Positions 273 through 33,970 of a DNA stretch of 64,000 nucleotides are shown here, piece after piece. Origin of the DNA: Gracilariopsis chorda (Eukaryota > Rhodophyta > Florideophyceae > Gracilariales > Gracilariaceae); the NCBI GenBank assembly GCA_003194525.1, contig NBIV01000091.1, positions 124,001 through 188,000 of the forward strand, read 5' to 3'. The notes beneath the pieces are model-generated. The model saw only the letters and a list, made by a program, of their open reading frames with translations, had not been told where the DNA came from and did not search any database. Position numbers and translations under genes: made by a program. The number at the start of each line of letters is the position of its first letter. The stretch's first letter is position 1.

Positions 273-3200
273 ATGGAAGAAGACACGTACAAAAAGCTTC
301 CGCGCTTTTGTGCTCGTCGGGATGAAGATTTTGCTCTTTGGACCATGCGAATTGAAGCGCTGTTAGAATCTAAGGATTTGATTCACGTCGTGGTTGATGA
401 TGTGATTGGTACGGAAGGTATTGATGCAATTACTACGGATATGAAGCAAAGAGTATTGACGGCAAGGATGTACCTTGTACAGACTCTCGGTGACAAGTCG
501 CTGAGAGCAATTGCTTCGGAGAGACAAAACCGATTCGTTATGTACAGAAAACTCCGTGGGAGTTATGCAACTGAGAACGCAGCAACGAGAGTACAGCTTC
601 AAACCAGTTTACACCAATTCCGCTTTACCGAGGGCAAGCCCATATCTGACTATGTAGATGAGATGGAATCCGTGTTTGCTCGTCTTGGTGGGATGGGAAG
701 TCCTCTCGAGGAAAGTATGCAGATTGCCAACCTCTTTTCAAGCTTCGGCTCCACGGGTGACAGTGCGTTTGGACCTGTGATATCTGCGTTGCAAACGATG
801 TCAGACACTGAGCTTTCTTGGGATAAGGTTACTGCGAGGCTCCTGCAGGAGTACGACACTCGAGCAATTGAGGCAACAACTGGAACATCTGTGCCACCCG
901 ATGAACACGTAGAAACCGAACGTGCCCTGAAAGCAAAAGTCAAGTGCGGATGTTTCCTGTGCGGAAAGAAGGGCCATTACAAACGAAACTGCCGCTCACA
1001 GAATCAAAATCAAAGAGAAGGTGGTAGTGGCACAAGCGTTCATCGTGCTCTCCTCGCTCTTAGTGACCCAGTTTATCGCTTCTTGATTGATTCAGGCGCT
1101 ACGTGCCATATGGCTGGGAGTCATGCTCTATCGCAATCGTTTACTCCAGTACAGCCTAGGACCATTTCCCTTGGAGATGGAAGGCGCATACAAGCTAAGA
1201 GTGAAGGACGAGTTGTATTGAGTGTGATCCAACCACGAGGACGTACTGGGTATCTAACACTAGATGGTGTGCTGTTCGCGATGAACTGGACTGCAACCTG
1301 ATCTCGTGTTCAAAGCTAATTGCAATAGGACACCGCATCCGATTTGATACATCGGGATGCACGATAGAGATGTGGAACAAGAGGGTAATAGCTGAAGCCT
1401 GTGAAGGGATGTATTTACTCTATGCTCACCTGAGCAGCAAACGAGCGTACGTAGCCCAGAATGCGAGGGGTATCCAGTTATGGCACGAGAGACTTGGCCA
1501 CATTGGCAGAAATCGGATAAGGCAAATGTCCAACAGTACTGCTGTAATTGGGCTAGACCTAACAAAGGGTCCATAGTTTGGATTACGCTGCACGCCATTT
1601 CTAGAAGGCAAAATGGTCCGCCGTACACTGCCGAGCCGAAGCGCCAATGACTCTTGTAATGTCAGAGATGTCATATTCTCAGACATTTGTGGTCCTTTCA
1701 GTACTCTGAGTATTGGAGGAAAGAAGTATTTTGTCTCTTTTATCGACAAAAGGTCAAGATACAAGGACATTAGACTTCTAAGTAGACGATTGGAACTCAC
1801 ACAGCAGTTCAGATGCTTCCAAGCAAAGTTTGAAAGGCAGGCTGAGAAGAAAATCAAACTGGTTTACTCCCACAATGCAAAAGAATACATTGCGCTCCGG
1901 AAGTACTTGTCTACTGAAGGCATAGATTGGGAAGCAAGTGCCCCGTATACTCCCCAATAGAACGGAGTAGCTGAGCGGTTCAATCGCTCAGTGATGGAAA
2001 TGGCACGGTCCATGTTGCGCCACGCTGGATTTCCGCATAGGTTCTGGGCACAAGCTGTTGTCACTGCTACAAGGATAATGAACACCATCAGCTGTGACGC
2101 CAATAATGGCATGACACCACATCAAGTCCTCACAGGAACCGTCCCAAACCTTGAGTCCTTGAGGACATTCGGCTGTGAAGTCTGGATACATGTTGCAAAG
2201 AAAAAGAAGCTGGAAAAGAAGGCACGACGTGGGATTCTACTCAGGTCCCTGCCACATCTAAACTACAGAGTGTATGACATTGAACCGAGAGAAGTGACGT
2301 TTGCCAGACATGTGACCATCAATTAAGACTTCTTCCCTGGGAGGCTTTTATTTTCCTCGGGAAGAGAAAGTGGAAGAGAGAATACCCTGGATGAGGTCGG
2401 AGGCAGCCCGGCGCCAGACCTTGGCCTTGATGAAGACCAGGTGCTCACTGATGCGCAAGAAAGTGAGCATAATGGTGCTAATGAGACCGCCGTTGATCGT
2501 GTGGGTTCAGTTGGAAACCCAACGGGCTCTGATGAACTACTCGCAGAAGCAAATTCAGATGAAGGCATCGAGTCCGATAATGTGGAAGATGCAGAAGCTG
2601 GCTCAATTACCTCCAGCATGCAGGAATTCCTTACCCACTATCCCATTAGACGCTATCCCGAGCGAAGCAGAAAGCCTCCAGAACGCTTTTCAGATACGCA
2701 GCACAGCAGCCATGTCAGCCTAGTTCAGAAACCAACAAGATTACCTGCAGACCTCGATGAAGCCAGGAAATCCTTGGACTGGGAACATTGGGAAGGGGCA
2801 ATCAAGGAAGAACTAGCATCCCTCAGGTCTATGAACACATGGGATGTGGTACAGAGGCCACCGAATTCTCAAGTCCTGGCATCTAAACTCGTCTTTGCGA
2901 CAAATTTGAACGATGATGGTACAGTATCAAGGTACAAAGCACGGCTGGTTGCCAAGGGATGCCAACAGGGCCATGTGGAAAACATATACTCACCTGTCGT
3001 TGACTTTTTCACAGTCCGAATCGCCCTTGCGCTAGCATGTGTGTACAACTTTGAGATACACCAACTGGACGTCAAGTGTGCTTTCCTGAATGGGCGTATC
3101 GATGATACAAACCCAGTCTATTTGGCTCCACCATCTGGATTAGATATAGGCCTGACAGAGCACGAAGTCCTCAAGCGAAACCGATCTATATACGGTCTCA

Positions 3201-4319
3201 AACAGTCCAACTCGATCTGGAGTCAATTGTTCACGCAGAGATTACTGGCATTGGGATTTCACTAATGCCTTTCTGACCCTTGTTTTTTCTACATTAAGAA
3301 GGATGGCAGCACCTTGTGGCTTCTCCTCTACGTGGACGACCTTCTGCTAATCGGCAATAGTGCGAACCTGATCAAGAATGTTAAGAAGATACTGGGTAAA
3401 GAGTTCGAAATGAAGGAAGTGTTTTGCTCGAACAGTTTTCTTGGTGTCTACATACAGAGGGAAGTAGGAGGACTCATTCTGCACCAGCAGCCAATGGTTG
3501 CAGGAATACTGGACAGGTTTAATATGTCACAGTCGAGCCCTGTCCCCACACCGATGACAACAAGCTACAAGCCATCCGATGCACTGAACGCAGAACCGAT
3601 GACATCGAAAACATTGTATCGGGGAGCTATCGGCTCTTCGCTCTACTTCTCGACGCGCACGAGACCTGATATATGTGCTGCCGTGAACATCTTATCGCGC
3701 GCCCAGGCCACGCCGACATTATATCATTGGAAGGCAGTGAAGAGGATTCTGAGGTACTTACGGAACTTGAAGTTTATGTCTTAGGTAAAGAAGGCCAGTG
3801 CATGGAATGGAGAATGTTTTGATGGCTTATAAAGATGCCGATTGGGCTGGGGATGACTTGGACAGGAAGTCTACAAGTGGCTTTTGTCTTTTTGTCCTAG
3901 GCAATGCAGTAGGCTGGCGCACACTGAAGCAGAGCTGTATTGCCACCTCTACGACAGAAGCGGGGTACGTTTCTCTATATGAATGTCTGAAGGAAGTGAA
4001 ATGGGCGTGTAACTTGCTGCGTGAAATTTGTATGCTTGACCCAGCAGTTCCATCTACTGTTAATGAAGACAACACAGGGGTACTGGATTGGAGTCATGGA
4101 ACGCGAAGAGCAAAACACATTGAGCTCAAATATCATTTCGTGGTTCAGGCAATTGAATCAGGAGAGGCCATTTTGAAGTATTGCACCACTGACGCAATGC
4201 TTGCAGATATATTCACAGAAGCGCTGAGTGTAGACCGCTTTGGTCGATTGTCGACAAAGTTTGGACTGATCAGGAGTAACAATGGCATGGGAAGGGTGAT
4301 GAGGAACACGCAATCGTGA
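273..4319 (+). pseudogene. Copia Gag-Pol polyprotein, broken
   Basis: The start is taken at the ATG at 273. Gag ends in a CCHC zinc knuckle (CFLCGKKGHYKRNC, near 955-995). The aspartic protease has DSGA (near 1090). The GAG-preintegrase motif LWHERLGH lies near 1480, integrase at about 1670-2330, reverse transcriptase at about 2765-3760 with the catalytic YVDD (near 3329), and RNase H at about 3830-4200 (DADWAGD, STSGFCLF). Breaks: the frame changes near 1270-1310; in-frame stops lie at 1574-1576, 1958-1960, 2324-2326, 3263-3265 and 3782-3784; a second frame change follows at about 3785-3800. Domain order and motifs make the family certain. The number of breaks shows a dead copy. Confidence 0.93.
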
Positions 4320-4385
4320 TGCCATTACCTACAGGTCTAGGACTCACGTAAGGTAGTTACGTGAGCCCCTTTGCCCGATACCTCT

Positions 4386-4567
4386 TGTGAGGTGTCGGAC
4401 CCTACGTATTGATGTACTATCTTGGGTTTGTGGTCCCCTGCTCGTTAGACTACAATACACATACGTACTGTGATTTTCGCAGGGTTTTACGCAGTTCCAA
4501 TCTATATAAAGAGTAAAGGAGTCTCCGCAGCTGAGAGAGCTGATCGAAGTCATCCAACCACTCAACA
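4386..4567 (+). repeat. 3' LTR of Copia element
   Basis: Partner of 4-185, same length over the aligned part. A purine-rich stretch at about 4289-4303 could be the polypurine tract, which would place the real LTR start near 4318 (TG). Between them sits a perfect 9-base hairpin (4343-4351 with 4357-4365, 5-base loop). Confidence 0.85.
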
Positions 4568-4594
4568 GAAACCATACATGTGTCCTACCAAGAT

Positions 4595-5248
4595 ATGTGG
4601 GAAAAAATAGGAGAAGCTGCAGCTTCGCAGAGCTGTCTTCCTGGGCCAGACGAGCCACTCACCAAAAACCCATTCTTGAAAGTTTGGATGACCCACTACC
4701 CAATGTTGCTCATTCTCAAGGCCGGAACGGATTTTTGCGAGCAGTATACTACTCTGTTGAATACTGCCAAGACTACTTCAACTGCAGATCTTCGAGAAAC
4801 ACTGCTATTTGCGCCACACAAACACCATACAGAGGCCTCACAAAAGTTCACACTGTACCAAACTATGCTCACGAGAGCGATTTTTTCGCCTACATCTACA
4901 CCGATACACCTGGTATTTGACTTCGCTGAAAGCGTGCTACTGCTTCACCTCCTCTGCCAACCGAGTCAACTTGATTTTACCACAGGGCTGATGTTGGATA
5001 GTTATGGCCTTTACAGCGGTATCATTCAGCTTTGTACATTTATGGACTTCCTGAAAGACATTGACCTAATTCTAAGACTGCAATTACGTCGCCTTTATGC
5101 TACATCATGCAATTGGCAAACATCGCTGTATGCGGTCTGTAACTGCGCAACACAGAACCATCGATCTATATGCAGACAATTAGAGCAGGCAAAAAAGAAA
5201 CCGCTTCATGCTGTGGTATTTACTACGACAAACTGCAATGTGATATGA
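4595..5248 (+). CDS. Hypothetical protein, 217 aa, unrecognised
   Basis: An open frame starting 27 bases after the Copia LTR. The composition is protein-like in the first 130 residues, and a hydrophobic run (FAESVLLLHLLC) sits near residue 105. I recognise no domain. A second frame over 4597-4920 is also open and equally protein-like, so the assignment is uncertain. It may be a fragment of a host or element gene disrupted by the Copia insertion. Confidence 0.3.
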   Translation: MWEKIGEAAASQSCLPGPDEPLTKNPFLKVWMTHYPMLLILKAGTDFCEQYTTLLNTAKTTSTADLRETLLFAPHKHHTEASQKFTLYQTMLTRAIFSPTSTPIHLVFDFAESVLLLHLLCQPSQLDFTTGLMLDSYGLYSGIIQLCTFMDFLKDIDLILRLQLRRLYATSCNWQTSLYAVCNCATQNHRSICRQLEQAKKKPLHAVVFTTTNCNVI

Positions 5249-12255: not shown

Positions 12256-13469
12256 GTGAGGAGAGACTTCTACTGGCCCCTGTTTGCTCACGATGTTTAT
12301 ACCTACTTGTCGAGATGCATTTCGTGCGTCATAAACCGTGGTGGGATTCAGAAACATCGTAAGCTTATGAAGCTATTCTCGGCGGCCGTCTCATTGGAGT
12401 TCATAACTATTGACCTATTGGGACCACTCCCTCAAGCCAATAAGGGATAAAAGTGCGTCATGGTAGATACCGATCGGTTCAAAAAGCTCACTCAAGCTAA
12501 CCTCCTCAAGTGCACAACCTTTACGGTATTGGCCGAAGCATTTTTCAAGCATTCAGTATCTCCGTATGGTTCTTCATTATAAATACTCACTGATATTGCT
12601 TCCAAACTGACTTTCAAGTTCTTTGAATCAGTCTACACAATGTTAGATTTGAAGCACTATTTTACGACCACGTACTACCCCCAACCCAATGGAGAAGTGG
12701 CAAAGTTTAACAGTACCCTTGTGGAACAAATGCACCACTACATAGCCGAACACCAATTGGATTGGCCGGATTTCTTCCACCCCTTGAATTACGCTTACAA
12801 CCTACAGGTACATCGCTCGATTGGAGGCACTCCCTTTGAATTGGTCTTACCTCAACACATTTCTGGTATTCTTGTCCAAGCTGGCACGGCAAAACGCCGT
12901 GCCACTGGGACATATCTGCCATTCAGGTGAAGATAGACGTTCTACGAACATTGAGGGAAGCCCTGTCGGTAGCCTTATCATGGGTGAATGCAGCCCAGGA
13001 TAAGGACCAGAAATAATTAGACCAGAATGTGCAAAGAGTTACCAAGCTAAAAGTTGGGGACTACGTCTTTATAGGCATCCCCCAAAACGGTGCTCGTCCA
13101 ACCCCGAAGGATTTGAAAGATGACCGACTGGCAGCGAGGGAGATCAAATCCATGCACTTTTCAAAATCAACCCCCCCTTATGAGCATATAAGAGCAGAGA
13201 ACAACACGGTAACAATCCTTGAAAGCGTTCTAGAGAACACATTCTCGTTGGATAGGGTTCCAAAAGCCCCTCAGGCTGGCGCACTTCTCGAGGTTCTTGA
13301 AGGAACACAAAGCACTTCCGCTCTTGGTTCGTCAATCCAAATCGAACAACAGGCTTCCAGGGATTCTACTTTGAGCCCCACCCCAGGTGGTAGTACTGAA
13401 CCAATCGGACCAAAGGTAGTCACAGCCAACCTTACAGGTGCTCCTGCTACTTCTCCGACTAGAGATAAT
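12256..13469 (+). pseudogene. Gypsy integrase and C-terminal linker, broken
   Basis: Integrase: part of the HHCC zinc region (CISCV near 12316), the catalytic core with ITIDLLGPLP (near 12405), a degenerate second-Asp block (LTDIASKLT, near 12590) and YYPQPNGEVAKFN near 12675. A linker from 13029 (VGDYVFIGIP, then LENTFSLDRVPKAPQAG) is typical of the region before a chromodomain. The frame is open to 13469, exactly where the Harbinger left repeat begins. It continues in the same frame at 22006. Confidence 0.85.
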
Positions 13470-13490
13470 GGGAGGATCCAGGAATTGACA
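13467..13490 (+). repeat. Harbinger left TSD (AAT) and terminal inverted repeat
   Basis: AAT at 13467-13469 is followed by the repeat GGGAGGATCCAGGAATTGAC. Its reverse complement, with one difference, ends the element at 22005 and is followed by AAT. Similarity continues weakly inward (ACAAACTCGAGAG versus ACAAACTGAGAGAG). Confidence 0.85.
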
Positions 13491-13580
13491 GAATGACAAA
13501 CTCGAGAGGGGATATGGCCTTGCCGGTTTTTGGCCACTTACCACCGTCAGAAAAAAAATTGTTACGCAGTTAACGAAACC

Positions 13581-13622
13581 TACAAATGGCCATGCTTCAA
13601 CAAAGAAGTATGGCCATTTGTA
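13581..13622. repeat. Subterminal hairpin, left end
   Basis: Arms 13581-13598 and 13605-13622 (TACAAATGGCCATGCTTC and its complement with one mismatch) around a 6-base loop. It lies about 110 bases inside the left terminal repeat. The right end has a hairpin of different sequence at a similar distance. It may be a transposase or SANT-protein binding site, but this is inference. Confidence 0.6.
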
Positions 13623-13760
13623 CAAAGTTCCAGCATGGAGTTTCGATCGCGCTTCCTATCCAACTCAACTTCTTGTGAAGCATACAGCCTTTTCCTTTGG
13701 TTTCCTTCCTTGCCTCACCTATTCCGTTACAAATACAAGTATAACCGTCTACTTTACACG

Positions 13761-14519
13761 ATGAGCGAGATAGATAAACAGTTCCAGAAAGGTACTCACT
13801 CTCGTCGCGGTAGTCTCAACTACAATGCAGAAGATATGCGGAAGCTCCTTGATTTGGTAGCGGACATTGAACCACTTGGTAGAAACCATTGGGCCAGAGT
13901 TGCAGAAAAGTTCATGCAGTGGGCTGAAGAGAACGACCGACCGAGAAGAACCGCAGACAGTTTGAAGGATAAGTTTGATCATCTGGCTTACACGCGGAAA
14001 CCAACCGGAGATCCACATATTCCACCCGAAGTGCGCCGTGCAAAACGAATATATCGTGATATTCAAGCAAAAGCACAGACGAATGTGCTTGGAAACCACG
14101 ATGAAAACCTTGCACCGTCCGAGAAGGAAATGGAGAATGCAAGAAGAACGTCTGGTGTTGTCGGTGAAAGTAGGAAACGAAGATTGGCAGATAATCCCAG
14201 GCTACCATTGGCGAAACGGATGCAGGTAGATATTGCAAAAAACATGGAAACTATGACGACGACCATGCTTGATATTGCTGAATATACCAAGAGCTCTGTG
14301 CAGAAAGAAGAAAGTGTTGTATCTATATCCGCTGTTCAGGACTTGGTTCGGAAAGAAACGGAAGCCGCAATGCGTAAAGTTCTTAAGGAGCTTTTATCTC
14401 GACAGAAAACTTATCCGGTTCCAGGAAGTGCGCCAACAGTGCTGCCGAGTATAGGAGAGATATTCCAATCCCCGTCTGAGCTAGGAAAATGTTTGGAAGA
14501 ATCGGAGAATGAGATGTAG
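13761..14519 (+). CDS. SANT/MYB-like Harbinger accessory protein, 252 aa
   Basis: Second protein of the Harbinger element. In this superfamily the SANT/MYB protein binds element DNA and helps bring the transposase to the nucleus and to the ends. Start chosen at the ATG of 13761 (MSEIDKQFQKG). A MYB/SANT-like helical domain spans about residues 20-80 with conserved Trp (NHW at 42-44), followed by a basic motif TGDPHIPPEVRRAKRI at residues 82-97, which recurs almost unchanged in the protein at 33971-35398. The C-terminal half is basic (ESRKRR) and likely helical. The frame is fully open, in contrast to the surrounding Gypsy, which suggests the Harbinger is younger than its host element. Confidence 0.8.
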   Translation: MSEIDKQFQKGTHSRRGSLNYNAEDMRKLLDLVADIEPLGRNHWARVAEKFMQWAEENDRPRRTADSLKDKFDHLAYTRKPTGDPHIPPEVRRAKRIYRDIQAKAQTNVLGNHDENLAPSEKEMENARRTSGVVGESRKRRLADNPRLPLAKRMQVDIAKNMETMTTTMLDIAEYTKSSVQKEESVVSISAVQDLVRKETEAAMRKVLKELLSRQKTYPVPGSAPTVLPSIGEIFQSPSELGKCLEESENEM

Positions 14520-15600
14520 ATGCGATGGGTTGGCATTGGAATTAGTAAAGAGGAATACATGACTATGGGTGAGTAAGAAATGTGCAGAAAGCAGTTTACG
14601 CGTAGCAATGGTGCTGTGTGGTGGTGTGGCAAGGTGACAAGGAGTAGATAAGCAAAAAGTTGAGAGCAAGCACAAGACCATTGGGCGCGCAGGCGCCTGA
14701 AGGGGTGTGTTGTTGAGGACGGAGGTGGGGGTGTTCTTCGGAGATGGACTGGAAGGCGGCGCGTTGATTAGGGGGCAACATGTGTCCGCGAAACGCGAAG
14801 TGATCGGGCGGGCGAACAGACAGGGCTGAGAAGAATGCGGCCAAGACGAAAGGCTAGGGTGTGGAGGGCAAGCCGAGTCGCAGCAGTCGACGCAGCGAAC
14901 GCAGTCACAACAACGTGAGAACAGCGGAAGAGTGATCGGCAATGAGCAGCGCCAGCACGGCGGCGTCCAGCGCTATGGTGACGGCCTAAATTGAACCGCG
15001 CGGCGGGGCGTTCCACTCGGCGAACGCTACGGCGGAGGGTGGAAATGTAACACAAAGGTGCTGAGCTGCGTGGTGCTAGCGGCGGCGACTATGTTGCGCG
15101 TCATGAGCACTTGGTCGAACGCGTCGTCCGCGCTTGTGTGCAGCACCATGGGCGTGGGCTGCGATTCGCCGTCATGGTGTTGTGGGCGTGGGCGTCTTCG
15201 TCAGTGGCAGCGCCATCCGTGCACGCGCGCGGGGGCGTTGCAGGTATCACCACCTCCTGCAGCCGCTCGCCCATCGCAATGCTGTGACGTAGGTGTCATA
15301 TCGGCGAGTTGCGCTTCGCGCCAGTGCTCTGCTCTTCAGATCGTTTTGTGGTGGCCCCACCACGTGGCCACGCAGCGGGCACCGCGCTGTCGCTACGCTG
15401 CATCTTGCGCTTGTCAGGTCACTGGAAATCTCGTCGCTGTGTGCGCCAAGCGCCGCCGTGCCTTTGTGTCTATTGCGCCTCCGTCCGTCGCCCACAGCAC
15501 ACAACCTCCCTCCACCGCATCTCCTTCGTCGCAGCCATGCTTCAGTTTTGTGTACGAACCTTTTCAAGATGACCAGGCTCTCGAACAACCGAACCAAGAT
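14520..15600. other. GC-rich stretch before the SCC3 pseudogene
   Basis: GC-rich, unlike the element ends. ORFs on both strands are rich in Ala, Pro, Ser and Cys and look fortuitous. It probably represents upstream sequence of the captured SCC3 copy, including its former promoter and 5' coding part, but no start codon can be fixed. The left edge of the captured block lies somewhere between 14520 and about 14700. Confidence 0.4.
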
Positions 15601-18600
15601 TCTTCTGTTCAGTGTCCTTTATTATTTTACGCTATGCTTCACAAGCCGTCGAGCTCACCCGGACTTGTAACTGCCTGGATGTCTCATGTATCTATCAACG
15701 GCCCAGAGGCCATGGCTGCCATCATGTCCCTTGTCATCAGCGCGGCGCGACCTGTACCCTTTTCCCGTGAGCAGCTGGTCACTTTGGACATGATTATCGC
15801 CAATGACCCACAAGAAAGCGTTAGGGACTTATGCCAAGTCCTAGCCGTTGATGAACCCGAGAAAGTCGTCGTTCTAGCAAAGAATACGCCATCTCGAAGA
15901 GTGCGTCGAACCTACGAAGACTTTTGGCGCCGCGTTGCATCTGAGGCTCCGGATGTAGTCTTGTATGACACTGATTGCTTTGAAACGCTTATTCCTTGGC
16001 TTGAGTCCATGTCTGGTTCTCCGATTCGAGCTCTCAGAATTTCCGCTTCCCTTGCTGCGTATCGACTTGTAGATGGGTTCATAGAAGTTGGCACACAGTT
16101 ACGAAAACAGCTTGCTAGCATTCAAAGACAACTTAACACAGAAAGAAGACGTAGTGGGATCAGTCAACGTAACGACAGCACGCGCGTTGCCAAGAAACGA
16201 GCAGCTCAAGGGAAAGAAAAGAAGAAAGAACTCTCTTCGAAGGGGAAGGAACTTGCTAACAAGGTTGATGAGCTAACTACGAAGAACAGTGAGCTCACAG
16301 AACTTTCAGATGGAGTATACAGAAGTACCTTCATTGGCCGCTATCACGATATATATGCCAACGTGCGCTCCATGTCACTACCAGCATTGGGAGGATGGAT
16401 CATGATGTTTCCTGATCAGTTTTTGGACGACACCCATAACAAGTACACCGGATGGCTTTTGTCAGATAAAGACGCTGTCGTTCGAAAGACAAGCCTCGAG
16501 GTTCTACATCGTATGCTAAAGAAAAAAGAGTATTTTGCCAACTTCGAAACATATCTGCAGCGTTTCTGTCATCGCATCATTGACATGGCCTGTAACAAAG
16601 ACGACACCGTTGCTGCAACTGCCATCCGTTCGATTAATTTCCTTTTGCCACATAACAGTACTGACAAACTCTTGAGACCTGCCCAGATTGCGCGGATATG
16701 TGATATTGCACTTGAAGATCATCCCACAGACGTTTGATGTGCGGCAGGAGAATTCTTGACAAGTATGGTTACTATGGAGATTGACGAAGTTCCTTCGTCC
16801 GCGTCGAAGCAGAGCCAAGTCCAACGAAGACAGAACAGGAAACATACATCCACTGGTCCGTTTAATACAATTTTGCAAGAAATCCCCTGTGTCTAACGGG
16901 CTCGGGAGGACACAAAGGAACTCTTATTTGCTATTGTAAGAAAAGGAGATGATGGGTTAGATGCTGCACTCGCTGTGGATGCTGTTTGGGATTATTTACC
17001 TTCCCTTCGGTGTTGGTAGGCCTTTAAAGAGCTTCTGTTTGAAGACCAACAACCTGAAACGGCGAGTAAAGACGGAGAAGCTTTGACTCTTAGTGAAAAG
17101 GGTGTAATGCGTGAGATGCTTTTGGCCTCTGCAACCGAAGCCAGTGGAAACGGAGATCCTATGCGAGCAAAGATAGTTGAGAAAGGGAATATTAGGACCC
17201 CGAAAAACCGGGGACTCTGCTGTCCAAACAGTTTCTGCCTCCGCTGCCTTGGTTACTAAATCAGTATCAATCGGACCCGAAGACAATCACTACTTTGGTG
17301 CAGCTACCAGGGCACTTCACAATCACAAAATTTGAGCAACAGGGCCAGGATGGCCATTTTTCCCCGATGCTAGAGCGTATCATTGAGGGAACTGGTGAAG
17401 CACACTGGTTCAGAGGAGGTCTCTTCAGCTTGCGCCGTGACACTAAGGAATTTTCTGTATTAACAGAATCCTTTGAAAAATGCGACCTGTACTTCTTTGC
17501 CACTTTGCTGTCAACGACTTTCCAAAGACTTTGCACTGCAAATTAGTATAGATCTCGCCAAGGCTGAACCGGATAATGTGACAGCTCTTATGTCTCAATT
17601 GCGAATCTTGACAGAACTTGTAGATTCTGACTCTTCCACATATGAGGTTGTGAAGGAAGTTTTGGAGTTCCAAGAAAGAAACGGCGATTTATCCGGGCTA
17701 CATGACCATGTCACAATTGATACATCTCGGTCAGCATGCGCCTTTGCCGTGTTGTCATTTTCAAAGATAAGATCTCGATTGATTACGAAGGGCTCGTCCC
17801 AAACATCACATGAAAAGATACTGGAGTTGGAAGAAGTTCAAAAATATCGTAACCAAGGTGCTGATGTAATTGATATATTGCAACCCATCTGCGCCTGTGA
17901 TTATGTTCCTTTGGCAGTAAGACTACTTTGTTCGCGATGCATTCTTGTAGTTTTAACACTATGTCGTGGCATTCAAAAGAATATGTCAATGATGATCTTG
18001 TGGAAGCGAACAGAATCGGACAACCCATCACCTGCAGATCCCGACCTCGACTTGCTTTCCCTTAAAGAAACGATCCCAAAGTTGGTGGACATGACCAGGT
18101 CCGTGGTCACCACCCTTGTTGAGTATGAGTTGAAACTCTCTTTTCCTAGAGGATCTGGAAGAAATCGTGGCCAAGCAGCACTTCAAGAAATAGAAGTAAG
18201 AGACTTTTTCGCATCTCTTGTTCAGGCATCTTTGCAGTCTTTGCTTTCGCGACATATCTCTCACCTTCCGCTTTTTTGAGTTCTTATCAAACCCCGGAAA
18301 GAAGCCAAAGCAGAAAGTAACGAATAGACATTTTTCACGTGTACCGGAACTATCTCCAACAGCGCCAAATACGTGGGAACGCTCTATCAAGAGACATTGT
18401 TGGAGCGCTGCACGAGTTGCTGAAGCTGCAGTGTGATAAGAAAGAACGGCGGAGTATAATCAGCGAACTGGCCGATATCTGTGTTTCATTCCGACATCGT
18501 CGGGATTTGAAGGCGAAAGGATCTATAGACCTGCTTCACGCTCTCTTTGATGACTGTGCCGAAGCATCAGATGCCACAGACGTTTTAGGAAAAGTGTTCG

Positions 18601-18917
18601 TTCTGCATTTCTCAAGTTTTGCCTTCATACCCCATTTTTCCCAGGAAGATGCCAAAGGTATGATGGGATCGATGAAAAAAATTGATGACCTTCGAAACAA
18701 GTATGCAGAAGCGTTGGAAGATGAATTGATCGATCTCTTTGACCATTTCCATTCTTCTCTTGAAGCCATCGCTGACGGAAGGTCTCCTGAGCTGCCTCCC
18801 ATGATGAGGGCAAGTGAAAGACCGAGATTCCCACGTGGGCCACGTCCCAAGAGAAGAAGAAGACGGGCTACTTCTCCCAGTTCACAGACCCCGCCTCCAG
18901 AGCCTTCAGCTTTATAA
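15601..18917 (+). pseudogene. SCC3: Cohesin subunit SCC3/STAG, broken copy
   Basis: SCC3/STAG proteins bind the Scc1 kleisin and load or hold the cohesin ring on chromosomes. The STAG N-terminal region (LFYAMLHKPSSSPGLVTAW onward) begins near 15620. The stromalin conserved domain is clear at about 16306-16518: FIGRYHDIYANVRSM, LGGWIMMFPDQFLDD, YTGWLLSDKDAVVRK. Later HEAT-repeat segments follow to 18917, ending in a basic tail (RPKRRRRRA). The span suits the usual 1100-1200 residues. In-frame stops: 16735-16737 (the CAAGEFL block continues after it), 16894-16896 and 17017-17019. Frame changes near 17.2, 17.5, 18.24 and 18.34 kb. The first stops cannot be explained by short introns alone, so I call it a pseudogene inside the Harbinger. 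Confidence 0.85.
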
Positions 18918-18949
18918 AGTCCTCGAACGCAAGAGTACATCATGTTACA

Positions 18950-19879
18950 ATGGAGAATTATTCCAGCTATTACAACAAAGATGGAGATGAGGAAAGGATC
19001 TTTGAACAGAACTCAGAAGATATTGGGACAACCGCGACGACAGCAGCGGATGTTGCGAGGAACATGATGGAGTATCAGAACTCTCCGGTCGCAATTCGCA
19101 AGAGAGCGAACAGAGAAGTTCCTGATGCATCCATAAATCCCCCGAAGCGAACAAGACGCACCAATAATTCGTCAAACAACAGAGAAACGAGCCCAAAGTT
19201 GCAAACACCGGAGTTTTTGGGGACTTATTCGGACCTCCGAAATAACGCTCCCAAGGCCACCCAGAGAGCTGAGCCCAATGACCAAGATACTAGCGATCAA
19301 AGAGACTCTCAAGTTAATGAATCAGGAGTTCTTGAAGAACAGATTTCCGACTTGAATTCTAACGGATCCGAACCATCGAGAAGAGCGGACCGGCAGAGTG
19401 ACAACCACGACAAAGAAGAACAGGAAGCCATCGCATCACAGCAAAAGCACTATATGGCTCGTAGGTCCGGGAATAGCGGTGGAACTCCAGCAAGTCCATG
19501 CGCCACCCAAAAGAGACGGGAAAGAACATATTCTAGTCCACCAAGATCGTTGATGGATGGCGGTAAAAAAGAATCGCAGGGCGTCTCACAAGATACCGTA
19601 CCACAGCGCAAAAACCAGCAATCTCAACAAATAAGTAAGTACGCTACATGCGGAAGTAGACGAAAGAGTGCACCCTCTGAGCAATCTGCTGGAAGAATCT
19701 CTGTAGGAACTTCTGACAGGAATGCAGAAGGTTCTACTGATGATCTTGAATCTAACAAACGAAGCCGCGGGTCACGCACAATCAATCGGCCTCAACGATT
19801 GGCGCAGGGGACTCATGTTCGTGAGGAAGATGGTCCAATCCAAAAGAATGATGTAACTAATGAAAACCGCAACAAATGA
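18950..19879 (+). CDS. Disordered hydrophilic protein, 309 aa, or SCC3 tail
   Basis: Open ORF from ATG 18950, very rich in Ser, Asn, Gln, Glu, Arg and Lys, with no hydrophobic core, so probably disordered. Its reading frame is open upstream across the SCC3 stop at 18915-18917, so it could be a C-terminal extension reached by one more frame change rather than a separate gene. Basic clusters such as PPKRTRR could be nuclear signals. No family recognised. Confidence 0.45.
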   Translation: MENYSSYYNKDGDEERIFEQNSEDIGTTATTAADVARNMMEYQNSPVAIRKRANREVPDASINPPKRTRRTNNSSNNRETSPKLQTPEFLGTYSDLRNNAPKATQRAEPNDQDTSDQRDSQVNESGVLEEQISDLNSNGSEPSRRADRQSDNHDKEEQEAIASQQKHYMARRSGNSGGTPASPCATQKRRERTYSSPPRSLMDGGKKESQGVSQDTVPQRKNQQSQQISKYATCGSRRKSAPSEQSAGRISVGTSDRNAEGSTDDLESNKRSRGSRTINRPQRLAQGTHVREEDGPIQKNDVTNENRNK

Positions 19880-20159
19880 ACGGGAAAGGATACCAAGCAA
19901 TGAAAACGGGCATGTGAATCCGATGTGAAAGCAAGGTTTGATTCGAAGGCATAAACTGAGAAGGTGGTAAACCGGCTTTTATTTCCAGTTTGTCTTGGCA
20001 CTGTTGCTGAAGATTCTATAAGCTGTTGCTAGGAGTACGGAATGCAGACAGGCGGGTTACGGTGCCCTTTGTACGGGTTTTCTTCTCTTTTTTCCGGACT
20101 TCTCTTTACTATTTTCTTTCTCGTTGTTATGTGACTTGGTATTGTCAGAGTTCTCAATG

Positions 20160-20520
20160 GCGGTTTTGGAAACTCTTAGCTGCGTTCAACAAGTGACGCA
20201 TGTAATTGAGCATAACGACATGCAACAAGCGCCCATGGCAACCACAGCAGCTTTACGTCTGCATGAGGTGCATGCCAAGTTGCTGTTGGATGGCGTCGTG
20301 CAACAACGCATTAAGTAGCATGAGCAAGAGGCTGCCAAGGAGGCCGCTGTACAGGAAGAACATGACCAAGAGTCGGATAAGAAACATCTAGATTATGTCG
20401 CCCGCTCGAGGGAACCAGCAAAGGTTGATGTGCACGCGTATCAATGCACGGATTGCGCCTACAAGAGCCTAGTACTACCGCTTACTAGGAAAAGGGGGTT
20501 GTATATATTGCAGGTAAGTG
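20160..20520 (+). pseudogene. Gene fragment with CxxC motif, unrecognised
   Basis: Starting near the ATG at 20157, one frame gives a helical stretch ending RIK, an in-frame TAG at 20316-20318, then a charged stretch (HEQEAAKEAAVQEEHDQ), KKHLDYVARSREP and a zinc-binding-like YQCTDCAYKSL. The sequence is protein-like on both sides of the stop and ends near the transposase 3' end. It looks like a fragment of a conserved host protein trapped in the same Harbinger block, but I cannot name it. Confidence 0.4.
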
Positions 20521-20547
20521 AAACCACCAAATACATCCGCAACATTT

Positions 20548-21735
20548 TCATACCTCGAACACTGACCGTATCTCATTATGTCCAATTGTACGTGTTCGAT
20601 AATTCATTAGGTGACAGCAAATCGCAATTATATCAAACCGTCTTCCACTATCAGCTGGAAGTATCGTACGAAGTCTTCGGAAAGGAATTTTTAAGGCGTT
20701 CACACCCCACTCCGCAGTCTGGCGGTAAGCGGGATATATTTTCTCAAGTACAAAGTCTACTGCCGCCATCTCTATAGACCTCGGCACCTGTTTTGCTTCG
20801 TTCGACTCCCTAGAGTGCAACAACTTCCCGTTTTTTACTGTTATGTTCGCCGCGAATGCACTATCACCAATGATTGCGTATCCCGGTGGCGTGACCTTTT
20901 CAGACAATCGTGGCCAGTATAGACCAGAAACTCCTGCTATTTTCGAATCGTGCCATGAGCCTGGGTAGTTGATCGCTGCATGGATGATTTCTCCATAGAC
21001 GTTCCACAAAAACAGGTTTGTAACCTCTGTCTTCTGCGTATATCCTTCGAAGTAAGAGTTATGGAGGTTAGAATCGTCGCAACTTGCGCAATGGAAACGG
21101 CCACCATCAACAACGCCAAATACTCCCTTCAAATATATGGCTGCTTCTGGTTTTGACTGCTCCAGACGTCTTGCAGAATCCTGCATCTCCATTATACTTG
21201 GCCATTCAATTTGAGCTTCCGGTATGGTTCCGGCTTTTAGAGCTCTCAACACCAACATTAATCCGTATTTTAACCACGCACTCACGCTAGACGGCACAAG
21301 GCCGAATATTGGGCAAAGCGAGTACATAACATCCGCTGTTCTCACATACCACAGTACCAATCCCAGAAGGTCCACTGATCGCAAACCTGCTTTTCGTCCT
21401 CTCTTCTTGCCATGCTTCGAATATGGGGAATAATATTCACAGGTTTGACGCACGTTCTCAATTTGAGGAAGAAGATCGTGGAAGAATCGCCATCTCTTAA
21501 CGTACAAATGAACGATAAAATTGTCATATGTATCACGGGATAACAATTGATACCAGTCCGTGCCGACTTGAGCGTGGATACCGTTCTTTAACCCGACTCG
21601 TTTCAACTTTCTCTTTTTCGAGATGCGTCGTTGCGGTTGAAGAGCGTAAACTGTGTTCAAACGAAACATGGTTGTATTCCACCACATAGTACCGGGAAGA
21701 AAGAGCATAAAAAACAGTTTTGTCTCAGTTCTCAT
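20548..21735 (-). CDS. Harbinger-type DDE transposase (DDE_4-like), 395 aa
   Basis: Cuts and joins the element ends. The ATG at 21735 opens a frame without stops. The DDE triad is visible as VVDGG (first Asp), IIGDSAF (second Asp) and AEWGVNAL (Glu), the order and spacing of PIF/Harbinger transposases; RLRTILP after the Glu fits as well. An N-terminal helix-turn-helix-like region precedes it. It is convergent with the SANT gene but 6 kb away from it. The frame is intact, so it could still be active; expression is unknown. Confidence 0.85.
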   Translation of the reverse strand: MRTETKLFFMLFLPGTMWWNTTMFRLNTVYALQPQRRISKKRKLKRVGLKNGIHAQVGTDWYQLLSRDTYDNFIVHLYVKRWRFFHDLLPQIENVRQTCEYYSPYSKHGKKRGRKAGLRSVDLLGLVLWYVRTADVMYSLCPIFGLVPSSVSAWLKYGLMLVLRALKAGTIPEAQIEWPSIMEMQDSARRLEQSKPEAAIYLKGVFGVVDGGRFHCASCDDSNLHNSYFEGYTQKTEVTNLFLWNVYGEIIHAAINYPGSWHDSKIAGVSGLYWPRLSEKVTPPGYAIIGDSAFAANITVKNGKLLHSRESNEAKQVPRSIEMAAVDFVLEKIYPAYRQTAEWGVNALKIPFRRLRTILPADSGRRFDIIAICCHLMNYRTRTIGHNEIRSVFEV

Positions 21736-21882
21736 CCTGAAAGATATGGCAGTGCGTGTTGTGGAAGTTAGTAATGTAGAACAGCTGAGGAGACGGTAGT
21801 TAGATGGAGGTGGGTTGGGTCTGATATTCGTAAAAGGAGATTTGGTTGCTTGTCACTTACTGGATATCAGCGTATGTCGTTC

Positions 21883-21909
21883 TGCAGCGGGTACCAGAAC
21901 CCCGCTGCA
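21883..21909. repeat. Subterminal hairpin, right end
   Basis: Perfect 9-base arms TGCAGCGGG (21883-21891) and CCCGCTGCA (21901-21909) around a 9-base loop, about 100 bases inside the right terminal repeat, mirroring the hairpin near the left end but with a different sequence. Confidence 0.55.
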
Positions 21910-21984
21910 AAATGACAAACTTGCAGCGAGTGAAGTTTTTTTTTGCGACGCCCTATTGGATACAAGCGGGTCACTCTCTCAGTT

Positions 21985-22008
21985 TGTCAATTCCTAGATC
22001 CTCCCAAT
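21985..22008 (-). repeat. Harbinger right terminal inverted repeat and TSD (AAT)
   Basis: 21985-22005 is the reverse complement of 13470-13490 with one mismatch, followed by AAT at 22006-22008, matching AAT at 13467-13469. Confidence 0.85.
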
Positions 22009-22269
22009 ACCCCACCACAAGGAAATGCAACCAAAGCTCATGGAAATGTATCAACAGAAACCGAAGGAGTGAATGACTTCATCGTCGGTCACGAATTTAC
22101 CATATCGGGAAATCGCTATTGTACAAGTTGTCATGGATAGACGGCACTCTATGACACCATGGAAATGCCCAATCACATACTAAATAACGTCCTTGCAACG
22201 TATTGGCGCAAATTAATTGAAACCCCACCAACAGGTTTACTTAACGCCCACGCGGTCTGTGGGCGCTAA
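22006..22269 (+). pseudogene. Gypsy chromodomain, displaced 3' end of the polyprotein
   Basis: The frame continues that of the integrase linker ending at 13469, with the shared AAT codon. A degenerate chromodomain is visible: VNDFIVGHEF, GNRYCTSCHG, an in-frame TAG (22138-22140), then YDTMEMPNHILNNVLATYW. Chromodomains in this position are known to guide integration to certain chromatin. The terminal stop is TAA at 22267-22269, directly followed by the purine-rich tract. Confidence 0.75.
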
Positions 22270-22284
22270 TAAGGGGAGGGAGAA

Positions 22285-25200
22285 CTTTTCGGAGCAGTAC
22301 CATATGATTGTAACAACAGAATAATAAGAGACTTATAACTATCAACTTTGTAACTGGGATACCCGCCGACCCAAGTGGAGCCATGACCAAATGGAAGGCA
22401 CCATGGCTGGATGTCCGTTGAGGTTCAGCGTCACCATCATGGGCCAAGTCTGCGACTACGGATAACCCCGCTATATTGGAAGCTTCCGAAAAAGTCAAAG
22501 TGTGGTCACAAAGACCAATGGAAAGGACGGACCTGATGTTTTTCGTTTGAAGGGATCCTCGTCGACCCAAGTGGTAAGGAACGGGAACAGTTCTGAGTGG
22601 TAGCTGAGCCAGTCGCAGTATGTTGCGGTCTACAGGGATAATCTGCAGCTGAACGCTTTGAATAAAAGGTTAAACGGGCCTTGACTGGTTTGGATTCTGC
22701 ACAATACGCCCGATGAATTCAGCCCATGAACCGTTAGGGACTCCCTGTACGTCTGACTTCTACTTACTCCCTAATAGGGAGTAAGTAGAAGTCAGACGTA
22801 CAACCATATGGAAGTAATAACCTCTTGGTTGGAGAAGATAACACACCGTTTTGGAAGATGTAACACCATCTGGGACCTTGGGTGAACGCGATGGAGAACA
22901 ACCATGCGCATGCACTTTCCCGTCGTGCCATCGATAAGGTGCGAAGGCTTGGAAAGGAACCACTACGCCTGCGTTGGTCCATGCCACACACACGACACCG
23001 CGCGCACGTGCAACCAAATGGTGGTGATCAAAAAATTCATGACTTTTTGAATTGCCGAGGTCAGTGCCAGACTATGCAATGCACGGTGCTTAAATAACTG
23101 ATTCAGTATACACTATTGTGTTTTGTGCACTGGTGCCAGCGTGATCTAAAAATCAAACTATTTTGAACGCTCCAGGGGTACAAACTGCGCATTCCCAGCC
23201 TCTGAAACGGCTTATTTTCGGAGATACAGACCAAAAGGTGATTCGACGTTCTTTATTCCATATGGAGAGATAAATTACGTATTGGGTTCTTTTATTCGCC
23301 TTGTCGGTAACCTCATGGCTGTGTGGCTGCGTACGACGGTACACACCGTTGAACGTTATGCGTAAGTGGCTGGTACTGTACATTGATGGTGGTTGACAGT
23401 GGACGCTTCAATCGCTGCGAGCCCATGTTGGTGTCACGCACCGCTTACTGCGCTCCTTCGGTGGCGTTATCCGTCAAACAGGGAGGTTTGGGACCAGCCA
23501 GAAGTGAAGGTACCAAAATGGTCTCGATAGGGAACCATCACAAAGCAGAGCTTGGTTCATTCCCACTAGGTCAACAAGGAGTTGAATGTGTGAAGGTGTC
23601 TAGTACGTTTTGTTGTCGCGTATTGGCCAAATTGGGATACTTGGAAACCTCTTGGAAGTAGAGTGGGCATGTGGCCAAATGGAGAAGCTATCACGCGGAA
23701 AAACCGTGACCGTCGGAAGGCTACCTCTAGGTTTGTTCTGACAATTTCTGATGGTGTTTATATCTTCTACTCGGGTATTTTGGCCAAGTGGTTATGAAGA
23801 ACTTGTATGCATAGCGACTGTTATATCGTCCATGGCAGGAAGTACCAAAAGGGGACAAACTGACCTTGGATAGCTGGATTTCAACCAATTTGGATAGCTC
23901 AACCAACTTTGTTCATATGTACCTTTTGGGTTTCCTTACTCACTTCAAGGAAGCCTCTACATGGCATTGTACCTACGGATGATGTGACCAGCTGAGGAAG
24001 GAAGGCGTCGTAACCGGTTGTGTAACACCCAACCTACTAGTTGAGGAGACATTAGTATTTACTGGGTACCAAACGGTGGTGTTCATCAGTGAATGCTTAC
24101 GTGGATGCCGATAGGTTTTTTCATCGTACGAAAAGGAACTTTATTGGTGTCGGGTACCTGGCCTTGCACGGACACAAACCGGTAAAACGCCAGCTGCATA
24201 GATCGGTAGGGAAGGCAAAAAGCGGCCAGGAAAAGAACGCATACCAAATGATAGGCTGGAGCAAACCCTAAGAGTTGTCTCAAGGTTCAAGCAAGGTCAC
24301 CATATGGCTACAAGACGATGATGACACCCAAAGATCTTTGATGTGGATAAGAAGATGTGGAACCCGAGGGACTAATTTGCCCCTCCATACTGGTGGAAAC
24401 GAACGGTGTCGGTTTCGGGTAGGGGATTCTACCGAAATGTCTCAGGAGACCGTCCGGGTTCCAGCGCACGTCATGTTCCTCTGTGCCTCGAGGTGTTTGA
24501 TTCCGACGCAGTTCCATTGTAGCGGGAGACCCCGTATTGTGCCGAGTTAAAACCGGGCTGAAGGCTATGAACGGTTTCAAAAGCGTAGTGAGCAACCTTT
24601 TGGGGCACTAACATAGTGCAAACCATTCCGCATGAGTGATCCAGATGAGATGATAACCATATCTTTTGGGAAATGAAGGATGGACCGGTGGAGAAACAGG
24701 AAGACTTTGGATAGCCCTGTCTCGGCACTACAACTATTGTTAATGAAGACGGAAATCGAGGGGAAGAATCCAAAGACAAGAGACTTAGTGGCAGGCACCG
24801 AATTGGACGCTATCCACACGATAGACAAGTAACCGATCGGATCAGTGGTAAAGCCCACCAAATGGTGTCGCGGAAAGGGAATGTTACCAAAATAGCGGCT
24901 TCACTGAAGGGATGAGAAGAAGAAAGAACTAACGGGTATGAAGAGAAGGAGGAAGCCAACTCGTGGGTTAGAATGGACCGCAAGAAAGATGCAATGATCA
25001 GCGTGTGCATCACCGAGTGGATGAATTTGCGCTCTGAACGGCAACCCACGCTCGAACCATCATCAAAATGGTTTACCAACATTGGCCACAGAGCCGCAGC
25101 GTACAGCCACGAAGGCGTGCCTGTCGATAAGAGAGGTTCTGTAATACTATGAGATCTGACAACGTCGGCAGTGCAACGCACGCTATACCAATTGTTTTGC

Positions 25201-32797: not shown

Positions 32798-33964
32798 ATG
32801 CTCCGCATTCTCCTCCTTTGCCTCTCCAAAAGCAATCGACTGCGCCAAATCGACAACGAACCCTTCCGCCACCACATCTCGGCAACTGCGCGACGCCATC
32901 GCGACAGACGTATCCCTCGGGTAGCGCTACAGGATTCACACTCATCTCCGTTTATGACTCTATTCCTGTCGGGTAATGATCAAGCTCTTATCACACTCAC
33001 TGGTTTCGATCATAATGCCTTCGATTATATTCTAAACAAGTTCGCGCCACTTTACGGTATATACTCCCCGTACTCTATCACTGGGATGGTAACTCGCCTC
33101 CAGCGCCCCGCACGAAGACCGAGATCGCTGACAGCTTTGCAGTGTCTCGGTCTGGTGCTGAGTTGGGGCAGAACGCGAGGGTCTACCATGGTCTTGTGCA
33201 TGTTGTTCGGCATATCAGCATCGGTATGCTCGCTGTTTCTTCGTTTCTGGAGGCGACTTGTGTTGCGGGCATTGAAGGATGATGATAACGCAGCTGTCAG
33301 AATGCCAACAGCTGAGGAAATAGAGGCCTTTCAAAATGCATTCTCTGCCAATTACTCTACCCTAGGTGATGTTTATGCTGTAGCAGATGGTTTGAAGCTT
33401 TACTTGGAGCAATCTGGGGACTGCGTAATTCAGAATATGTTCTATAATGGATGGACGCATGATCATTACGTCGGCAACGTCTTCGTGTTTGCTCCAAATG
33501 GATGCATCATTGCATGCGCAACAAACGCTCCAGGAGCCATGCGTGACTCTACTATAGCTGAATAGGGAAACATTTATTCGAAACTAGAGGCCTGCTACGA
33601 AAACTACGGAGGGCGATGTGTCGTGGACTCCGCTTTTTGTAAGGGACAGTACCCATTTCTTATTAAGTCTGCACAGGATCATTTCAGCTCGGCTGTTTAC
33701 GCTTTAGATGTCGTACGCATGTGCCAAGCAACGTCTGCAAGGCAGGCATCCGAATGGGGAATGCGTGGATTTCAAGGAACGTTTCCTCGCCTCAAGGACC
33801 GAATGCCGTACGAGGAGAGAGGCGAACGTAAGCTAATTTTACTTTCAGTGGTTCGGCTATTCAACCTTCGGGCAAGACTGGTGGGGATTAATCAAATCTT
33901 ATCATCTTATATGCCACACATGGGCGCAGAAGCAAACCATCTATTGTTCTCTATGAATCCGTAA
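32798..33964 (+). pseudogene. Second Harbinger-type transposase, one stop codon
   Basis: ATG at 32798. DDE motifs: YAVADGLK (first Asp), CVVDSAFC (second Asp), SEWGMRGFQGTFPRLK (Glu and following basic block). One in-frame TAG at 33563-33565 lies between the first two catalytic Asp residues; apart from it the 388-codon frame is open, so the gene has recently died or the stop is a polymorphism. It is convergent with a SANT gene on the minus strand, stop codons only 6 bases apart. It is clearly related in layout and motifs to 20548-21735. Confidence 0.8.
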
Positions 33965-33970
33965 AACAAG

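Follow-up and report, generated by a model that had tools for sequence, protein, structure and literature searches.

How do cut-and-paste transposons come to carry the genes of their hosts? The question is an old one, and the intermediate stages that would answer it are rarely met. It is raised by a stretch of 64,000 nucleotides (nt) from the red alga Gracilariopsis chorda (assembly GCA_003194525.1, contig NBIV01000091.1, positions 124,001 to 188,000; hereafter the window), in which a broken copy of the gene for the cohesin subunit SCC3/STAG lies between the two genes of a PIF/Harbinger-like transposon. An earlier interpretation made from the letters alone (the sequence-only reading) had proposed that the transposon captured the cohesin gene and then inserted here. 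We find the capture supported by an intact source gene elsewhere in the genome, by relatives of the transposon without SCC3, and by junctions that are identical in elements at different sites. For the window copy the order is shown as well, since elements that lie between different flanks have these captured junctions too. It is very probable, moreover, that a two-gene red-algal element picked up host DNA serially, between genes that it retained.

The extent of the element can be fixed independently of its contents. Its tips pair at 20 of 21 bases (13470-13490 against 21985-22005), the inverted-repeat arm found by a repeat search is 31 nt long at 87% identity, and the inverted repeat is about 27-31 bp long. 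When the window flanks are joined with a single AAT, they align through the join to repeat copies on contigs C84 (75%) and C106 (73%); these empty-site alignments fix the boundaries of the window element. We searched the element against its own genome (91.3 Mb, 1081 contigs) and obtained 78 matches. Because 40 of 63 candidates were scored, copy numbers given here are lower bounds. The resulting sample has 19 members, the window copy and 18 others, and both ends could be read in 16. The 3-bp duplications flanking the members are identical in 14 of these 16 and one base off in C73 (cgt/agt) and C211 (aat/agt), and the right-side duplication has the form ANT in every one. Three members, C283, C511 and C514 (L018, L019 and L020), share one flank; this region is duplicated or allelic in the assembly, and we counted it as one insertion. 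L numbers refer to coordinates within stretches taken from contigs (L014 from C234, L036 from C9, L024 from C199). Eight elements, at no fewer than eight sites, hold SCC3 pieces, six of them near-complete. The empty site and the family copies thus bear out the 8536 bases bounded by inverted repeats and AAT that had been described from the letters alone. Taken by itself, the window would be compatible with ordinary host DNA flanked by the ends of two different Harbingers or by an assembly join, but we give this next to no credence: the same composite and junctions recur elsewhere with different flanks and their own 3-bp duplications, and the window locus has an empty site. The multi-copy junctions and the empty site together refute the view of 14520-20547 as host DNA between unrelated Harbinger ends.

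The intact SCC3 gene for which the sequence-only reading had advised a search lies on C234. It is a single uninterrupted frame of 1583 codons (L014:4504-9255, with its ATG at L014:4504) that matches the Pfam STAG, SCD and SCC3-HEAT domains (E 5.8e-18, 4.7e-23 and 1.4e-32, respectively). One homolog is collinear with it over the full length at 79% identity; homologs occur in Gracilaria domingensis, Agarophyton chilense and Chondrus crispus, and the match to a fungus is far weaker. Domains and full-length orthologs together identify it as a cohesin SCC3/STAG gene. We considered whether C234 might itself be transposon-derived and rejected this, since the gene continues past both cargo breakpoints and a full-length homolog exists. 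The two outcomes named beforehand as fatal to capture, an SCC3 gene that is both intact and the only one in the genome at this locus, or continuous host DNA, are therefore both contradicted.

The cargo in the window is 93.3% identical to L014 4818-9476 and covers 1478 of the 1583 codons, the 3' flank and the last 135 bp of the convergent open frame next to the gene. Capture was probably at the DNA level, because DNA beyond the SCC3 gene is included. A comparison of introns and flanks had been suggested as a check on capture. The C234 gene shows no introns, so intron loss is of no use as a test; the host locus runs past both breakpoints. The window copy still matches STAG (5.8e-20) and SCD (1.6e-20). 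Read in the host frame, it has nine in-frame stops and five frame-shifting indels, which exceeds the minimum of three stops and four frame changes noticed earlier. A disordered open reading frame of 309 codons (18950-19879), previously listed as a separate item, is the C-terminal tail of SCC3, and we rejected it as a third gene. The whole of 14520-20547 had been taken as the captured stretch; the SCC3 insert occupies only part of it (Table 1). The left SCC3 junction falls at the same base in all seven copies that hold it (window, C90, C3, C35, C17, C248 and C153), and the right junction is identical in six of the seven and deleted in C153. One further element, C188, retains the last 200 bp of SCC3 cargo with the same right junction. 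At the left junction a single base is common to donor and recipient; at the right junction they have no base in common.

The remaining cargo comes from a second host locus, on C9, which holds a rubredoxin-like gene. In C73, C46, C199 and C15, 851-871 bp of C9 sequence stand where SCC3 sits in the window, without SCC3; C73, for example, matches L036:1531-4073 at 86.8% over 2546 bp. In the window element, SCC3 replaces 917 bp of the C9 piece (L036 2823-3739, the length being that in C9 itself). SCC3 therefore entered cargo that had already been captured, which is serial capture. The CxxC-containing fragment remarked on in the sequence-only reading is present, but it is not the Harbinger's own, an assignment that we rejected; it is the end of the rubredoxin-like gene, captured earlier. 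That gene encodes a conserved red-algal protein (70% identical to Agarophyton, 69% to Gracilaria domingensis), although its Pfam rubredoxin matches are weak (E 0.0005 and 0.0027, below the cut-off). An open MFS transporter frame adjoins it, and no element ends were matched in the 5.5 kb around the gene. The C9 junctions have a few shared bases, as judged by eye. A further indication of how this piece was shaped comes from C199, which has an extra 906-bp stretch (L024:5464-6369) made up of about 680 bp of dispersed repeat and 230 bp of C9. The 230 bp derive from 1.5 kb upstream on C9 and are joined to the C9 piece. The first C9 capture was thus probably larger and later trimmed, as if the MFS gene had at first been included and was lost afterwards. 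Separately, a 673-codon frame on the reverse strand (L036:1282-3303) runs antisense to part of the rubredoxin gene and the sequence upstream; it has no Pfam match and was partly captured.

A third layer is found in C211, C161, C291 and C199, which carry about 0.8 kb resembling a locus on C26 at the same intergenic site. This piece overlaps the end of a class-3 lipase gene (Lipase_3, E 7.5e-15). The C26 locus may be its source or a relative of the source, an assignment made less firm by an identity of 69-72%; no element ends were found in the C26 DNA examined. C199 holds the C26 piece and then the C9 piece in tandem, and the start of the C9 piece in C73 lies no more than about 15 bp from that of the C26 piece in C211. 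The C26 layer is probably the oldest cargo. As a separate observation, C161 also has an insert of some 800 bp (798 bp; L027:1791-2584), which is a highly abundant genomic repeat, partly tandem, with 1864 first-look candidates.

We built a tree from ORF1 and the transposase for 18 of the 19 elements, leaving out C514 for its many alignment gaps and including C46 without ORF1. The outer members are C161, C291, C211, C199, C46 and C15, followed by C73, C248, C188 and C17 and then the rest. Support along this ladder is 94-100, and several nodes within the SCC3 group have 40-70. A small deletion just after C9 position 4010 agrees with this order: the resulting junction is common to the window, C90, C3, C35, C17 and C153 and absent from C248 and C188. 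The tree also bears on relatives that hold the two genes and no cargo. Such two-gene forms, for which the sequence-only reading had advised a search, do exist, but they are deletions, and it is C73, C46, C199 and C15 that hold C9 without SCC3. Specifically, cargo-free C79, C283 and C511 fall in a clade with C3, C35 and C153 (support 100), and C79, C283, C511 and C514 all retain 45-48 bp of C9 as a scar, with its left edge in the same place. We rejected these four as empty ancestors, the first three on the tree and all four on the scar. They are later deletion derivatives.

Several points weigh against this history. Support for the deep nodes in the element tree is low (45, 49 and 69), and C46, which has C9 without C26, groups at 49 with C161 and C291, which have C26 without C9. 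That C26 preceded C9 is indicated chiefly by C199 and by the lower identity of the C26 piece, and intermediate forms may have been missed among the unscored candidates. C248 (L013), whose ORF1 is 95% and transposase 87% identical to those of the window element, lies near the window and C90 by ORF1 (support 40), whereas its transposase puts it in a basal position (99). It is probably a recombinant of two elements, and exchange within the family is therefore probable. Other parts of the history are firm: where the C9 and SCC3 pieces came from, the junctions, the entry of SCC3 after C9, the loss of cargo and the mosaic described below.

Could the composite have arisen without any capture by a single element? 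In a compound element, two transposon copies would flank SCC3 (and earlier C9), their inner ends would decay, and the outer ends would move everything between them. A neighbouring-insertion model of this kind has been proposed for Pack-TYPE elements, with a Pack-PIF example (PMC8903248, section 9), and it also predicts what is found here: host DNA between a left and a right half, and part of the older cargo gone. However, C234 is whole and runs through both breakpoints, and no remnant resembling the window element turned up in the 4.8 kb upstream or the 5.5 kb downstream. Moreover, cut-and-paste movement would remove the source unless a sister copy were kept, and three such events would be needed in one intergenic interval. 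We consider a compound origin improbable.

Once spread, the SCC3 cargo has been drifting. All six near-complete copies are broken, each with at least three in-frame stops, and the SCC3 cargoes lack the first 105 codons; the least changed is that of C3, with three stops and a 53-bp deletion. Substitutions relative to the host gene are spread almost evenly over the three codon positions (92/85/96 in the window copy), and the ratio of nonsynonymous to synonymous substitution rates (omega, or dN/dS) is 0.85-1.21 for 15 pairs of copies and 0.69-0.88 for 6 pairings of a copy with the host gene. From the even codon positions and the omega values, the cargo drifts neutrally with no visible selection on the protein, and on the same grounds we rejected selection on the cargo protein. 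Nothing was found to suggest that the cargo serves transposon or host as a protein. A broader form of the idea is that selection maintains the cargo, for instance because it yields a truncated, interfering cohesin protein, or small RNAs that tune the host SCC3 to the transposon's benefit. The presence of SCC3 pieces in eight elements, two of which are near-host again in the middle, would fit, but the broken and truncated state of the copies and their even change over codon positions do not, and cargo-free two-gene derivatives have spread too (C79 and the C283/C511/C514 insertion). We regard a selected cargo as very unlikely.

The two copies that are near-host in the middle, C3 and C35, are placed differently by the SCC3 tree and the transposon tree. 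Counting positions as SCC3 cargo sites, we found 69 gap-free sites, spanning 529-4239, at which the window, C90 and C17 share a non-host state (27 of them shared with C248 also) and C3 and C35 have the host state; this span is taken as the tract (3.7 kb). At 16 other sites, C3 and C35 share a derived state with the window and C90 (8 of them with C17 also), and all 16 lie outside the span, at 9-413 and 4279-4605. So clean a separation of the two classes did not arise in any of 200000 permutations. If the other copies are ignored, the window and C90 have a derived base in common, as against the host, C3 and C35, at 104 sites within 529-4239 and at none outside. Divergence from the host gene follows the same boundaries, at 1.81% in the tract and 4.72% outside it for C3, and 3.07% and 6.55% for C35. 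An outgroup protein indicates that at the 69 sites the host residue is the older in 32 cases, that of the copies in 5 and neither in 12, with 20 silent. In an approximately unbiased (AU) test of two fixed trees, each part of the cargo rejects the tree of the other (p 4.8e-5 and 3.4e-6). The middle 3.7 kb of C3 and C35 is best read as gene conversion from the intact host SCC3 to the transposon, which is the simplest reading.

The donor of the tract could instead be a less decayed element that we have not seen, and 21 scattered tract sites conflict with conversion in that C3 or C35 shares a base with other copies (both do so at one of the 21). Exchange with a less decayed element, or a second capture, would also yield a mosaic. 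In its favour, C248 is placed differently by its two genes, and C3 and C35 join the host in the tract nearly as a star (support 46), so two separate events or an unseen donor element are possible. C153, which its ends make their sister, is derived at 664 and at all seven sites in 4012-4239 but has the host state at the five other sites in 529-725 (sites at which the window, C90 and C17 agree); its cargo may be a mosaic of its own. On the other hand, none of the scored candidates proved to have an undecayed tract, C3 differs from the host far less inside the tract than outside it, and no part of the rewritten stretch extends beyond the region in which cargo and host gene are homologous. We hold an origin by exchange or second capture to be somewhat unlikely, though the C248 result makes it a little less so.

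From these observations the history of the family would run as follows. A piece of the class-3 lipase locus would have entered the gap between the two genes; a piece of the rubredoxin-gene locus would have been added beside it, the lipase piece being deleted later in one lineage; and 4.64 kb of the C234 SCC3/STAG gene then replaced about 0.9 kb of the C9 piece. The SCC3-bearing element spread to at least eight sites while its SCC3 copies decayed neutrally, some members lost nearly all of their cargo through internal deletion, and in an ancestor of C3 and C35 the broken SCC3 middle would have been rewritten from the intact host gene. Because the source loci remain unbroken and the overlap at the SCC3 junctions is one base on one side and zero on the other, we infer that capture proceeded by copy-type gap repair after excision, in which the repair strand switched to an unlinked host locus. 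The later rewriting suggests exchange between cargo and source, which would fit such a mechanism. Movement would have been by the element's own transposase. A further suggestion is that contact runs both ways: the kind of repair that copied SCC3 into the element would later have renewed decayed cargo, and nested captures would build a growing library of host genes while the transposition genes stay open. We rate this as slightly less than an even call, because C248 points also to exchange between elements.

The transposase of the window element places it among the Harbingers. Its two genes are convergent, one at each end, as the sequence-only reading described, and domain matches confirm both. 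ORF1 matches Pfam DUF6818 (E 2.3e-14), and the reverse-strand transposase matches DDE_Tnp_4 over the full profile, 1-158 (E 4e-14). The second gene of PIF/Harbinger elements typically encodes a Myb/SANT-type DNA-binding protein; here, Myb models gave no match to ORF1. Among 40 listed transposase homologs, PF13359 is present in 37, and the best 30 are 39-53% identical; Gracilariopsis chorda gave one partial match (34% covered, 71% identical). The three putative catalytic residues were judged by eye against known motifs. Among the seven copies with large SCC3 cargo, both genes are free of stops and frameshifts in the window copy only, in a count that used the window genes as reference. Set beside the cargo omega values, dN/dS across 17 chosen pairs each is 0.34-1.07 in ORF1 and 0.42-0.81 in the transposase, which indicates constraint mixed with decay.

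Table 1. Coordinates within the window of the transposon, its genes and its layers of captured host DNA
Feature	Position	Strand	Remarks
Whole transposon, PIF/Harbinger-like, 8536 bp	13470..22005	.	Inverted repeats, 3-bp duplication, empty site, multi-copy family
Left target site duplication, AAT	13467..13469	.	
Right target site duplication, AAT	22006..22008	.	
Left terminal inverted repeat	13470..13496	+	Repeat-finding arm 13466-13496
Right terminal inverted repeat	21979..22005	-	Repeat-finding arm 21979-22009
ORF1, 252 codons, DUF6818	13761..14519	+	Open in window copy
Transposase, 395 codons, DDE_Tnp_4	20548..21735	-	Open in window copy
Older cargo, left part, from C9 (L036 1752-1807, 1880-2822)	14581..15555	+	85-86% identical
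SCC3 cargo, 4.64 kb, from C234 (L014 4818-9476)	15556..20192	+	93% identical; replaces about 0.9 kb of C9 cargo
Broken SCC3 coding remnant, source codons 106-1583	15556..19970	+	Right end approximate; includes 309-codon ORF 18950-19879
3' end of convergent open frame adjoining host SCC3 (L014 9342-9476)	20058..20192	-	Left end approximate
Older cargo, right part: C-terminal end of C9 rubredoxin-like gene (L036 3740-4010)	20193..20463	+	93% identical; CxxC source

A second Harbinger-type pair, recognized as such in the sequence-only reading, lies at 32798-35398. It consists of a DUF6818 protein (33971-35398, reverse strand) and a transposase reading frame (32798-33565, forward strand) that matches only the first 60 of the 158 positions of DDE_Tnp_4 and looks cut short. 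In algal Harbingers generally, ORF1 may carry a DUF6818 domain. The repeat into which the window element inserted (13029-13469 and 22009-22300) is dispersed. Its C106 copy encodes a chromodomain-like end, and the Pfam Chromo match is weak (E 1.1e-4, below the cut-off); judging from this sequence, it is probably a Ty3/Gypsy-type retrotransposon with a chromodomain.

Members of the Harbinger superfamily are described as duplicating a 3-bp target and as ending in inverted repeats of some 25-50 bp (PMC2572040). The window family has 3-bp duplications and inverted repeats of about 27-31 bp, together with a Harbinger-type DDE transposase. Plant PIF target sites are TAA or TTA (PMC2528002), but those of the window family are ANT (aat, agt, act and att), and we therefore do not file it as plant-type PIF. 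With Pack-TYPE elements it shares host coding DNA between its own ends, in the form of SCC3 and rubredoxin-locus pieces with host sources, but such elements are non-autonomous and lack a working transposase gene, and both window genes are open. The window element works like a Pack-TYPE element, yet stands outside that definition. The ANT duplications are reminiscent of the bacterial ISL2 group of IS5 elements.

Pack-MULEs, Helitrons and CACTA elements duplicate and scatter pieces of host genes, and differ in their transposases, ends and target duplications. Capture by a Harbinger is less unusual than the sequence-only reading supposed, as it has been published for PIF/Harbinger elements of grapevine (PMC2528002), Caenorhabditis elegans (PMC2572040), and maize and rice (PMC8903248). 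The grapevine Pifvine-3 elements contain transduplicated host DNA, in some cases common to several copies, and resemble the window family in that they carry host exon and intron DNA (in a 5' region of up to 3.5 kb), with ORF1 and transposase kept in the grapevine PIFs (PMC2528002). They differ in holding the cargo in the 5' region rather than between convergent genes and in having mostly TAA or TTA target duplications; here, by contrast, we find ANT, nearly a whole host gene, nested layers and a tract later returned to the source sequence. Turmoil-1, a C. elegans Harbinger, likewise has two captured coding sequences at nearby sites, but these are reported to lie inside long terminal repeats, with one complete genomic copy (PMC2572040), whereas here 4.64 kb of one gene locus is internal and amplified. 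The Pack-PIFs of maize and rice also have PIF ends around host coding DNA, and their cluster #18 records two successive small captures, of 163 and 58 bp; unlike these elements, the family studied here keeps the transposon's own genes (PMC8903248). Among the papers listed by our literature searches, judged by titles and the openings of abstracts, none described Harbinger gene capture in red algae or such a capture of a cohesin gene.

Capture itself is thus known, and what is new here is its size, its nesting, the red algal host and the rewritten cargo. Harbinger gene capture appears to extend to red algae. SCC3 matches in such genomes can be transposon cargo and should be read with that in mind. 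A single genome holds the source loci, relatives that lack SCC3, an element in which two cargoes adjoin, a clade with SCC3, scarred deletions and cargoes that are host-like again, so that the ancestral states, the junctions and the order of events can be read directly from it.

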